From Bdellovibrionales bacterium (GTDB taxonomy: Bacteria; Bdellovibrionota; Bdellovibrionia; Bdellovibrionales; UBA1609), in contig JAHBUX010000006.1 in the NCBI GenBank assembly GCA_019637855.1, positions 124,001 through 188,000 on the forward strand: 64,000 nt of DNA, given 5' to 3'. Shown piece by piece: positions 7,296 through 42,273 of the stretch. The translations under genes were made by a program, and so were the position numbers. The first letter of the stretch is position 1. Each line of letters opens with the position of its first letter. The notes under the pieces were generated by a model. It was not told where the DNA came from. It did not search any database and saw only the letters and a list, made by a program, of their open reading frames with translations.

Positions 7296-7364
7296 GCCCA
7301 GCAGTTTATCTTGACTGGTTTCAGGCGGCTAACCACAATGCGGCAAGACTGACGGAGGTGTGGC

Positions 7365-8147
7365 ATCGAGATCTCGCTTGAGGGGCGTACAGCCCTTGTT
7401 GGAGGAGCTTCACAGGGTATTGGCCAAGCCACCGCCCGGGTTCTGGCCCAGGCTGGAGCCCGCGTCATTCTGATGTCTCGCCGCTCCGACGTTTTGGAGC
7501 AGGTGAAAGCCTCGCTGCCCAACGCCAGTGAGCACCGCACCCTGGCTTTGGATTTAGAGCGTACCGAGGATGTGGCCGCCCGCTTAGCACGGGTTGTGGC
7601 CGATGCGGGCCCGGTGACCATTTGGGTGAACAACACCGGCGGGCCTAAGGCAGGTCCATTGAGCGAAGCCAGCCCCGATGAGATGGAAAGAGCTTTTCGT
7701 GGACATGTGATGGCGTCACAGCTGATTTTGCGCGCCCTGCTGCCGGGGATGAAGGCTGAGGGGTATGGTCGCATCATCAACGTGCTGTCGACATCCGTAA
7801 AAATCCCAATTCCCAATCTGGGTGTTTCCAATCTGATCCGGGCCGCCATGGCCTCATGGGCAAAGACTTTGTCTTTGGAGTTGGGGCCGCTGGGGATCAC
7901 CGTGAACAATATTTTGCCTGGCTATACCGAAACGCCGCGGCTTGAGTCTTTGATCACCGGCGCGGCAGGTAAGAGTGGTCGCAGCGAAGACGACATTCGC
8001 CGCGATTGGATTGAGACGATTCCGGCCCGCCGTATCGGTTCGCCGGAAGAAACCGCAAAGGCCATTGCCTTCTTGGCTTCTCCGGCAGCCGCTTATATTT
8101 CAGGCACTCAGTTGCCGGTGGATGGCGGCCGCACGGGGGCGTTTTGA
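7365..8147 (+). CDS. Divergent short-chain dehydrogenase with apparent ATC start
   Basis: A Rossmann-fold SDR is evident: GGASQGIG is the cofactor glycine motif, NNTGG replaces NNAG, and PGYTETPR and the C-terminal SGTQLPVDGG are classical. The frame opens after TGA at 7350-7352 and contains no ATG, GTG or TTG before an internal ATG at 7473, which would delete the cofactor site. A GGAGG at 7354-7358 stands six bases before ATC at 7365, giving the canonical N-terminus MEISLEGRTALVGGASQGIG. The catalytic YxxxK is not visible: the aligned segment reads NLGVSNLIRAA, with Leu and Asn at the Tyr and Lys positions, so chemistry may differ from a normal SDR. It is the first gene of the ring-cleavage operon and overlaps the next by TTGA. 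Confidence 0.88.
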   Translation: MEISLEGRTALVGGASQGIGQATARVLAQAGARVILMSRRSDVLEQVKASLPNASEHRTLALDLERTEDVAARLARVVADAGPVTIWVNNTGGPKAGPLSEASPDEMERAFRGHVMASQLILRALLPGMKAEGYGRIINVLSTSVKIPIPNLGVSNLIRAAMASWAKTLSLELGPLGITVNNILPGYTETPRLESLITGAAGKSGRSEDDIRRDWIETIPARRIGSPEETAKAIAFLASPAAAYISGTQLPVDGGRTGAF

Positions 8148-9355: not shown

Positions 9356-10798
9356 GTGGAACAGCTCAAGAATTTTATAGGCGGCGAGTTTGTCGCTCCG
9401 AACGAAGGCAAGTACCTAGATAAAATCAGCCCGATGACGGCGCAAAAGATCTATGAGCTGCCGGATTCGTCCGAAGTCGATGTGGTATTGGCGATCAAAG
9501 CGGCGCAAGGCGCCTTTAGCGAGTGGTCGGAGAAAAAGGCCGTTGAGCGCAGTCAGATTTTAAATCGCGTGGCCGATCTGATTGATCAGCACCGCGAAGC
9601 ACTGGCGCGCGCTGAAAGCGAAGATGTTGGCAAGCCTTTAGATCTTTCGCGCACACTGGATATTCCGCGCGCGGCTTTAAATTTTCGTTTCTTTGCCAGC
9701 GCCATTTTGCACAAACACGAAATGGCCAGTGATATGGACGGCGAAGCCATCAATTACGTTTTACGTCAGCCGGTCGGCGTGGCCGGATTGATCTCACCAT
9801 GGAATCTGCCGCTTTATCTTTTGACTTGGAAGATTGCGCCGGCCCTAGCTTGCGGCAACACTGTGGTGTGTAAGCCGTCGGAGTGGACGTCGAAGACCGC
9901 ATTTATGTTGGGCTCGCTTCTCAACGAGGCAGGAGTGCCTAAAGGCGTGGTCAATATGGTGTTTGGCAAGGGGGACCCGGCCGGCGCTTACCTGGTAAAG
10001 CATCCGGGTGTGCCGCTGATCTCGTTTACCGGCGGCACCGCCACGGGCGAAAAGATTCAGACCCTGGCTGCTCCTTATGTGAAAAAACTGAGCTTAGAGC
10101 TTGGTGGAAAGAACGCCACCATCGTGATGAAAGATGCTGATCTGGCAAAGGTGATCCCGCAGATCGCGCGCGCTAGCTTTTTAAATCAGGGCGAGATCTG
10201 CCTTTGTGGTTCCAAAATCCTGGTGCAAGAGGACATCTACAAAGAATTCACCGAGCAGTTCGTCAAGCATGTTGAAAGTTTGGTGGTTGGCGATCCGATG
10301 GACAGCAAAACATTTATGGGGCCGATTGTATCCAAAACTCAGTACGATAAAGTCCTAAGCCTCCTGGAAGTGGCTAAAAAAGACGGCGGCAAGGTGCTCA
10401 CCGGTGGCGTGCGCCCCGAATTGCCGGCGGCATTTAAGGACGGTTATTTTTTACGGCCGACAGTGATTGGTGATCTCACCAATTGCAGTGAGATTCACCA
10501 AACCGAAATCTTCGGTCCGGTGGTGACGTTGAATTCATTTAAGTACGCGCACGAGGCAGTGAAGTGGGCGAACAATTCGCCCTATGGTCTCTCGGCCAGT
10601 GTATGGACCAAGAATTTAAATCAAGCGCACAAGATCGCCGCCGATCTGCGCGTAGGCACGGTGTGGGTGAACACATGGTTGAAACGGGATTTGCGTATGC
10701 CGTTTGGCGGCGCCAAGGCTTCGGGTCTAGGCCGTGAGGGCGGCGAGCACTCTTTGGATTTCTTCACCGAGACCAAAACGGTCTGCATTCAGTTGTGA
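9356..10798 (+). CDS. Aldehyde dehydrogenase, 2-aminomuconate semialdehyde type
   Basis: This is a full-length 480-residue NAD-dependent aldehyde dehydrogenase. The Asn of ISPWNLPLYL, the general-base glutamate E248 in LELGGKN and the nucleophile C282 in NQGEICLCGS are all present. The short-loop organisation and the NQGEICLCGS motif fit the 2-hydroxymuconate/2-aminomuconate semialdehyde dehydrogenase group (AmnC, human ALDH8A1-like). Start is GTG at 9356 just after the monooxygenase stop. Placement directly before the aminophenol-dioxygenase subunits supports oxidation of the ring-cleavage semialdehyde to aminomuconate. Enzyme class is certain; substrate is inferred. Confidence 0.93.
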   Translation: MEQLKNFIGGEFVAPNEGKYLDKISPMTAQKIYELPDSSEVDVVLAIKAAQGAFSEWSEKKAVERSQILNRVADLIDQHREALARAESEDVGKPLDLSRTLDIPRAALNFRFFASAILHKHEMASDMDGEAINYVLRQPVGVAGLISPWNLPLYLLTWKIAPALACGNTVVCKPSEWTSKTAFMLGSLLNEAGVPKGVVNMVFGKGDPAGAYLVKHPGVPLISFTGGTATGEKIQTLAAPYVKKLSLELGGKNATIVMKDADLAKVIPQIARASFLNQGEICLCGSKILVQEDIYKEFTEQFVKHVESLVVGDPMDSKTFMGPIVSKTQYDKVLSLLEVAKKDGGKVLTGGVRPELPAAFKDGYFLRPTVIGDLTNCSEIHQTEIFGPVVTLNSFKYAHEAVKWANNSPYGLSASVWTKNLNQAHKIAADLRVGTVWVNTWLKRDLRMPFGGAKASGLGREGGEHSLDFFTETKTVCIQL

Positions 10799-23040: not shown

Positions 23041-23160
23041 TCCTGAAATCGTTCAGGAAGTGGGTTTTCTTTTTACGTTCAAAGGAGACCTCTTATATCA
23101 AATTCAGAAATCGAAGGACAAAAAGTCGGTTCATCAACAAACGCCGGGGCGACTCAACAA

Positions 23161-23865
23161 ATGGACTTGGAGCAGCCTAAGGTCTTTTTGTATCTCCGGG
23201 TCAGCACGAACGACCAAAATGTCGAGAGCCAAAAGTTCGCGCTTCTTGATTATTGCTCTCGGCAAGGGCTACAGAACTACGAGATGTTCATTGACCACGG
23301 CATTTCGGGCGCAAAGGAAAGCCGTCCGGCGCTCAATGAAATGATGGCACGAGTAGAAAAGCAAGAATGCTCGCAGGTGATCGTGTTTTCGTTCTCCCGT
23401 TTCGCTCGAAGCGTGAGTCATCTACTGAAGGCGCTCCAGAAATTCAAAGAGAAAAACATCCGTTTTGTCTCGACGACGGAACAGCTAGATACGAACTCTC
23501 CAATGGGATTGGCTCTCTTCACCATCCTCGGGGCGCTCGCGCAAATGGAGAGGGAAATTATCAGAAATCGCGTGATCGCGGGCCTTCAAAACGCAAAGGC
23601 GAAAGGCAAACGCATTGGGCGAGAGCGTAAGAGAAACGATGCTTTGATCCACTCGCTTTTAGAAGCGGGACTCAGTTTTAGGGAGATTTCGAGGATAGCC
23701 CGGTGTTCACATGGGTCTGTGTCAGCTTCTAAACGGGAGCTTCTGGCGAAAAAGGCTCTGCTGAAAGCGCAAGAGGAACAACGGAAGACTGAAGCGGCTC
23801 CCTCTTCCGCAGACGGCCCTCAAGAAGCGGCCGTCGTGGCATCTTCGATCATGCCCCCGCCGTAA
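23161..23865 (+). CDS. Small serine recombinase (resolvase/invertase type)
   Basis: The catalytic domain is complete: FLYLRVSTNDQN gives R13 and nucleophile S15, followed by VIVFSFSRFARS, NSPMGLALFTILGALAQMEREI and GLQNAKAKGKRIGR. A C-terminal HTH of the resolvase type (RNDALIHSLLEAGLSFREIS...CSHGSVSASKRE) contacts DNA, then a 40-residue low-complexity tail. ATG 23161 has no ribosome-binding site. The frame stays open upstream to 23047, and GGAG at 23084-23087 stands seven bases before an in-frame ATA at 23095, which would add 22 residues. The ATG is reported as the conservative start. The gene ends in a perfect intrinsic terminator. It may invert or resolve DNA of the element next to tRNA-Asp. 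Confidence 0.92.
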   Translation: MDLEQPKVFLYLRVSTNDQNVESQKFALLDYCSRQGLQNYEMFIDHGISGAKESRPALNEMMARVEKQECSQVIVFSFSRFARSVSHLLKALQKFKEKNIRFVSTTEQLDTNSPMGLALFTILGALAQMEREIIRNRVIAGLQNAKAKGKRIGRERKRNDALIHSLLEAGLSFREISRIARCSHGSVSASKRELLAKKALLKAQEEQRKTEAAPSSADGPQEAAVVASSIMPPP

Positions 23866-40452: not shown

Positions 40453-40503
40453 GGCACCCGTTGCGCATCGGCTACGGCACTCTCTTTGCTAAGTCTCTTT
40501 TCC

Positions 40504-41721
40504 ATGAAATCCGGAAGGAATACAGCGGGCGGCGCTTGGGCACAGTGGGGCGTTGTCTTCTCTTTTAGGGTAATTTTGACTGCTTCTCTCGCTCTGCAGA
40601 GTGCCTCAGCCTTTGGCAAAGATTCCTGTGAAATCGCGCTTTCTACGATTGGCTCGCTAAAAACGCGGTTTTCCTCCGTGGTCATTGAGCAGATCCGCAA
40701 TCACCCCGTTTATGAGTTGGGTCGCAAGTATAAGGATGGAGAAGGACTTCGTTTTACGTCCAAGTTCTTTCGTGAACCATATGAGATGCATCTGCCGAAC
40801 TTCGAGGTGGGCGAATCAATTCAAGGTGCAATGGTGCAAGAGACATTGAAAACCATCTTTCCGAAAGCTGAGTTCAGGCGGCTTACGGCGTTCGATCAGG
40901 ACCCGGGCTGGGGAAGAAGAATTAATGTCGTTATTACGGATTCGGCTGAGCACGGCGGTCTTGTAGACATACACGCTTCACCCGTTATGGAGATGGGAAT
41001 TATCAAACAGGCAAATCCAGGAGTTCCGCAGGATCGCGATTTAGCCCGAGCGCGTTTGGGTCTGACTAGCTCCGAGCGTGTGGTCACGATCTATGCTTCG
41101 CGGTGGAATTTCCCTCGTTTGCCAGCGATCATTTTGGCATTGAGGAACTCGCCTCAACCGCCAAACGTTATTTTTGTGGCCAGCGGAGGGAGCGCGACAG
41201 GCGTTGATGATGTCGTGAAGCATAGATCGTACGATATGCGTGGAGACCGCGCATACAAAAACATGCGGGCGTTCGCAATCCATACATGGCCCTACCAGAT
41301 GCATGATCTTAGTCGGATTTTGCATTTTAATAGCCTTCCACGGGACAGCGGCCTTACGTTTGTGATGAATGATATGGTGGGAGCGATGCCCTTACTGTAT
41401 GCGGCTTCAGATGCCGCTATTGTTGTTGGCCCGATCAATATCTTAGAACCGCTGTCGCAAAAGACTCCGGTAATTTATTTTGCTGACGCAAAGACGATTG
41501 GCTTTTATTCTTATTTTTCAACGATGGCCTGGGTGGCTGAAGAAACAGGCGCTGGATTTCCCGTAGAAGAGGCTGGAGAGGTTCCGTCCAGGTACAATGA
41601 GGCATTGAACGTGAATAGTAAGATACTCTCGCCCCATCTCGTCACGCTATCGTCTGGTAAGACGGTATTTCAAACCTATCTGGACCATTTGCAACGTTAC
41701 CTAGAAAATCAAGATCTCTAG
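40504..41721 (+). CDS. Exported protein resembling a GT-B glycosyltransferase domain
   Basis: ATG 40504 is chosen. The frame extends to a TTG at 40486 but neither has a Shine-Dalgarno sequence. A hydrophobic stretch VVFSFRVILTASLALQSASAF acts as signal peptide after a long polar leader. The C-terminal half (RARLGLTSSERVVTIYASRWNFP, then YAASDAAIVVGPINILEPLSQKTPVIYF) follows the second Rossmann half of KDO-transferase-like GT-B enzymes. No first-half donor motifs are clear. A signal peptide on such a fold is unusual. Family uncertain. Confidence 0.72.
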   Translation: MKSGRNTAGGAWAQWGVVFSFRVILTASLALQSASAFGKDSCEIALSTIGSLKTRFSSVVIEQIRNHPVYELGRKYKDGEGLRFTSKFFREPYEMHLPNFEVGESIQGAMVQETLKTIFPKAEFRRLTAFDQDPGWGRRINVVITDSAEHGGLVDIHASPVMEMGIIKQANPGVPQDRDLARARLGLTSSERVVTIYASRWNFPRLPAIILALRNSPQPPNVIFVASGGSATGVDDVVKHRSYDMRGDRAYKNMRAFAIHTWPYQMHDLSRILHFNSLPRDSGLTFVMNDMVGAMPLLYAASDAAIVVGPINILEPLSQKTPVIYFADAKTIGFYSYFSTMAWVAEETGAGFPVEEAGEVPSRYNEALNVNSKILSPHLVTLSSGKTVFQTYLDHLQRYLENQDL

Positions 41722-41730
41722 GAGAGAACT

Positions 41731-42273
41731 ATTAAAACCGTCCAAGATGTTCTGCACTTCTGGTTTCAAGAGCTCGACACAAAAATGCATTTCGCTAAAA
41801 GTACGGAATTGGATGAAAATATCCGCGATCGATTTTCGTCTACGTACTTAGCGGCATTGAATGGAGAAACTGCGGCGTGGCGGAGTTCGCCGGAAGGACG
41901 CCTGGCTGAGATCATTGTTTTAGACCAATTCTCACGCAATATGTTTCGCGACACTCCAAAAGCCTTTGCCAGTGACGCTTTATCTTTGCGTTTGGCGCGC
42001 GAAGCCGTGACGGCCGGTGATGATAAAAAGCTGCCTGTGGCGAAGCGGGCGTTCATATACATGCCCTATATGCATAGTGAAGACCTTGAGGCTCATCGCG
42101 AGGCCGTGACGCTGTTTTCTGAGCCGGGCCTTGAGTTCAATTTGAAGTTTGAGCTTATGCATAAAGCGATCATTGATCGTTTTGGCAGGTATCCGCATCG
42201 CAATCAGATTTTAGGGAGGGTTTCGACCGCTGCTGAAGTGGAGTTTTTGAAAGAAAAGGGCTCGTCGTTTTAG
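41731..42273 (+). CDS. DUF924 family protein with apparent ATT start
   Basis: The family pattern is clear: VLHFWFQEL at the N-terminus, FSRNMFRDTPKAFASDALSLRLARE (DQFxRNxxR motif), and FIYMPYMHSEDLEAHREAV. In the only open frame (after TAG 41719-41721, the stop of the upstream gene) no ATG, GTG or TTG occurs before ATG 41785, which would remove the conserved FWF segment. GGAG (41721-41724) stands six bases before ATT 41731, giving MKTVQDVLHFWFQELD. DUF924 proteins are small helical, TPR-like proteins of unknown function. The 3' end overlaps the convergent gene by 4 bp. Confidence 0.88.
   Translation: MKTVQDVLHFWFQELDTKMHFAKSTELDENIRDRFSSTYLAALNGETAAWRSSPEGRLAEIIVLDQFSRNMFRDTPKAFASDALSLRLAREAVTAGDDKKLPVAKRAFIYMPYMHSEDLEAHREAVTLFSEPGLEFNLKFELMHKAIIDRFGRYPHRNQILGRVSTAAEVEFLKEKGSSF

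Follow-up and report, generated by a model that had tools for sequence, protein, structure and literature searches.

The window, by which the whole analysed stretch of 64,000 nucleotides is meant, comes from a Bdellovibrio-related bacterium and contains a gene of the DUF924 family with the codon ATT (41731..41733, + strand) at its start position. In the best-supported reading, which is considered likely, DUF924 would be translated from this AUU under the guidance of a Shine-Dalgarno (SD) sequence, probably with re-initiation by ribosomes that finish the upstream gene at the UAG overlapping this SD.

Start region of the DUF924 gene

The stop codon TAG of the upstream gene was located at 41719-41721, and the DUF924 frame opens directly 3' of it with GAG AGA ACT ATT AAA ACC GTC CAA GAT GTT CTG CAC TTC TGG TTT. 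The SD sequence AGGAG (41720..41724, +) overlaps this stop and is followed by the six bases AGAACT and then by ATT. It matches the anti-SD of the 16S 3' end, which reads GGATCACCTCCTT in this genome. The sequence-only reading had placed the frame immediately after the TAG and GGAG six bases 5' of ATT, and the sequence bears this out, with GGAG at 41721-41724 inside AGGAG. At least 5 SD bases at a spacing of 4-11 precede 0.8% of the 31,027 ATT trinucleotides in 1.15 Mb of the genome; the corresponding value for the first ATGs of long ORFs is 8.8%.

The coding sequence from ATT (41731..42273, +) comprises 180 residues and matches the Pfam family DUF924 (PF06041) over its full length (profile 1-180 of 180) with 211.5 bits, above the curated cut-off of 27. 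A relative in PDB is 2i6h (E 2e-30). The match begins at residue 10 of the ORF, hence the first canonical start in frame, the ATG at 41785..41787 (+), comes only after the beginning of the domain. As had been noted from the sequence alone, the conserved VLHFWF motif (41749..41766, +) lies upstream of this ATG. A product started at 41785 would be devoid of the motif and thereby of FWF, which is invariant across the aligned DUF924 proteins (n = 31), and this ATG was rejected on that ground. No ATG, GTG or TTG was found in the DUF924 frame between the TAG and 41785. The hexamer coding score was 6.5 after ATT and -3.0 before it. No special structure was detected by RNA folding at the DUF924 start (z-scores of -0.2 and 0.8). 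At its 3' end the gene is overlapped by a few bases by a convergent gene with HNH-associated repeats (PF18780; 42270-43706, -).

The upstream gene (40486..41721, +) encodes 411 aa from its first canonical codon and belongs to no Pfam family. It shares one frame with DUF924, a single TAG standing between the two (40486-42273, +), a feature that the sequence-only reading had not pointed out. Due to this shared frame, read-through of the TAG at 41719 would yield a fusion in which DUF924 is the C-terminal extension of the upstream protein. Such a fusion is very improbable because the distant homologues of the upstream protein stand alone and carry no DUF924, and because an SD sequence with ideal spacing to ATT is situated at the junction; the relatives of DUF924 also possess a start of their own. 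Close homologues of either gene were not found in the other members of the genus.

Start positions of DUF924 relatives

Relatives of DUF924 were collected from the order and by scanning bacterial genomes. In each, the stretch from the upstream stop to the conserved Trp was read codon by codon, giving 122 distinct sequences including the window gene. A canonical start was present in 121 of them, the window gene being the sole exception. When the start was chosen by the best SD, the 121 relatives had ATG in 98, GTG in 13 and TTG in 10 cases. The nearest canonical codon was mostly 7-11 codons 5' of the Trp, with a mode of 9. The ATT of the window gene, 10 codons 5' of the conserved Trp, is thus at the start position of the relatives; it is the sole one-mismatch codon there, at the place where the relatives have ATG, GTG or TTG. 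One relative (L038) has ATG at exactly the same aligned position. The best relatives outside the genus were about 60-68% identical. Within the genus no close DUF924 orthologue was found: one member has a distant homologue (39%) starting with ATG and two have no match.

The distance to the Trp also bears on a missing base in the sequence, by which the out-of-frame ATG at 41747, just 5' of the motif, would become the real start (M-V-L-H-F-W-F). The probability of this is negligible, as that ATG is nearer to the Trp than the usual 7-11 codons and about 22 nt from the SD, which is too far.

The sequence-only reading had suggested checking whether related genomes keep ATT. None of the 121 distinct relatives does, all having canonical starts. 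The start position backs ATT as the start of the window gene, yet the codon is not conserved, and the conservation argument for an IF3-type regulation of DUF924 is removed.

AUH starts of infC and, as proposed, of a dehydrogenase gene

The infC gene of the same genome reads AGGAGG CTAACA ATT CGT CCA, i.e. it has an ATT start. In the order, 29 of the 30 scored infC genes have ATT (22), ATC (5) or ATA (2) after an SD. Which AUH codon is used differs among these infC loci (L110-L139), while the strong SD is constant. The organism thus appears to initiate at AUH codons.

A supporting case is a second gene of the window, a short-chain dehydrogenase (Pfam adh_short; 7365..8147, +), which has a proposed ATC start at 7365-7367. 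The SD sequence GGAGG (7354..7358, +) precedes this ATC, and the start reads TGA CGGAGGTGTGGC ATC GAG ATC TCG CTT GAG GGG CGT. The first canonical start is found only 36 codons after ATC, beyond the nucleotide-binding motif. ATC is common to all four members of the genus, with GGAGG 5-6 nt upstream in the other three, and to G009 of another genus, with AGGAGG 6 nt upstream. No canonical in-frame start upstream of the domain was found in the window gene, G002 or G009, and in G002 an in-frame TGA stands two codons 5' of ATC. The remaining relatives have mostly canonical starts. A shared base error in five separate assemblies is unlikely, and the ATC site is therefore solid at the level of the sequence. 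The dehydrogenase locus (7353-8147, +) heads a gene run that also includes an LLM-type ORF at 8144 and, at 9356, an aldehyde dehydrogenase-like ORF. No published report of this ATC start was found in a partial literature search. The conserved ATC is the more interesting companion to the DUF924 ATT. Since its ATT is not conserved, DUF924 is less likely than the dehydrogenase to have a purposeful regulatory role.

These cases, together with the position of ATT, its SD and the lack of an alternative, give good support to the earlier proposal that ATT is the start codon of DUF924. The main alternative is an error or a recent change at 41731-41733: either the codon is truly canonical and a base was misread, or a start-codon mutation has lately lowered the expression of an ordinary gene. 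Such an origin of the ATT is considered unlikely. It would agree with the canonical starts of all 121 distinct relatives, with the ATT being known from one assembly alone and with the same-genus genomes having no close DUF924 for comparison. However, the DUF924 ORF is intact across the full domain, and the same genome has the ATT infC and the conserved ATC dehydrogenase, which makes real ATH starts at least as expected as a start-codon error.

Screening for further AUH starts

The own genome was screened over 1.15 Mb, one third of its length, with 974 coding-like ORFs. ATH starts without a canonical alternative were detected only in DUF924 and the dehydrogenase; infC was missed because of an upstream in-frame TTG. 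In the same screen no overall enrichment of ATH was found among the codons after SD sequences (2/26), which counts against the AUU reading of DUF924. The two cases in 974 ORFs indicate that AUH initiation is rare here, and together with the lack of ATH enrichment they give no support to a genome-wide use.

The comparison with G001, a genome of the same genus, covered about 300 pairs of homologous ORFs, and infC was the sole credible shared ATH start among them. A second shared hit resembled an antisense shadow ORF and a third had canonical codons adjacent. A set of 36 flagged pairs consisted, as judged by eye, mostly of alignments that extended into 5' UTR sequence. In G001, one ATC candidate (C2:186751) resembled the prfB frameshift site. 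In the window, a serine recombinase ORF (Resolvase; 23047-23862, +) has ATA after an SD, but this ATA (23047) is probably no start since the domain begins after the first ATG. An NAD-epimerase ORF of G001 (L304; C1:392288-393172, -) has ATT after GGAGG. Its Rossmann motif is not preceded by any canonical start, and no close orthologue of this ORF was found among 40 relatives.

Discussion

Translation of DUF924 from the AUU at 41731 could proceed as follows. The well-spaced AGGAG would hold the 30S subunit at the AUU, probably assisted by ribosomes that complete the upstream gene at the UAG overlapping this SD, and the initiator fMet-tRNA would pair with AUU through a third-position mismatch. 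The actual initiation at AUU, a low yield, the contribution of the upstream stop and an effect of IF3 on the yield are the inferred parts of this scheme. The yield of DUF924 from AUU is probably low, a reduction being expected from the reporter work on S. aureus AUU and AUA starts (PMC13009471). The control through IF3 that the sequence-only reading had considered is plausible for DUF924 by extension from studies of other genes (PMC5472188, PMC13009471). A wider proposal is that the genus and some of its neighbours have a small set of AUH-started genes beyond infC which respond jointly to the level or the fidelity of IF3 and would add an IF3 regulon to the cases known so far. The candidate members would be the conserved ATC dehydrogenase, DUF924 and the ATT epimerase of G001; this proposal is speculative and quite improbable.

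To our knowledge, documented bacterial AUH-start genes besides infC are few. AUU starts are already known, and DUF924 is probably a new example of them. A partial search of the literature yielded no paper on DUF924 and none on AUU starts in Bdellovibrio. Gene finders restricted to ATG, GTG and TTG truncate such proteins, DUF924 by 18 residues including the invariant motif. That the dehydrogenase, a metabolic gene of the same window, has a conserved ATC suggests that the lineage can retain AUH starts, and this gene is a directly testable second case.

In comparison with known systems, DUF924 resembles infC in its AUH start (AUU, AUC or AUA in infC) and strong SD, and an ATT infC is present in the same genome. 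In contrast to the non-conserved ATT of DUF924, the AUH start of infC is conserved across the order and is autoregulatory in E. coli, as determined by experiments cited in PMC5472188, the autoregulation being based on repression by IF3. E. coli pcnB, in which the AUU start limits expression (Binns and Masters 2002, as cited in PMC13009471), is likewise an example of AUU use outside infC, although the gene is unrelated. In S. aureus, cvfC1 (AUU) and ccpN (AUA) combine strong SD pairing with a lowered yield in reporters (PMC13009471) and are similar to DUF924 in having an AUH start with a strong SD. Their starts were mapped by ribosome profiling and are conserved, whereas the ATT of DUF924 is known from the sequence of one species. 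Streptomyces sigR differs in having a GTC start instead of ATT and in its repression by IF3, which was demonstrated experimentally (PMC5472188), and shares with DUF924 a non-canonical start of the sort that is overlooked by standard gene prediction.
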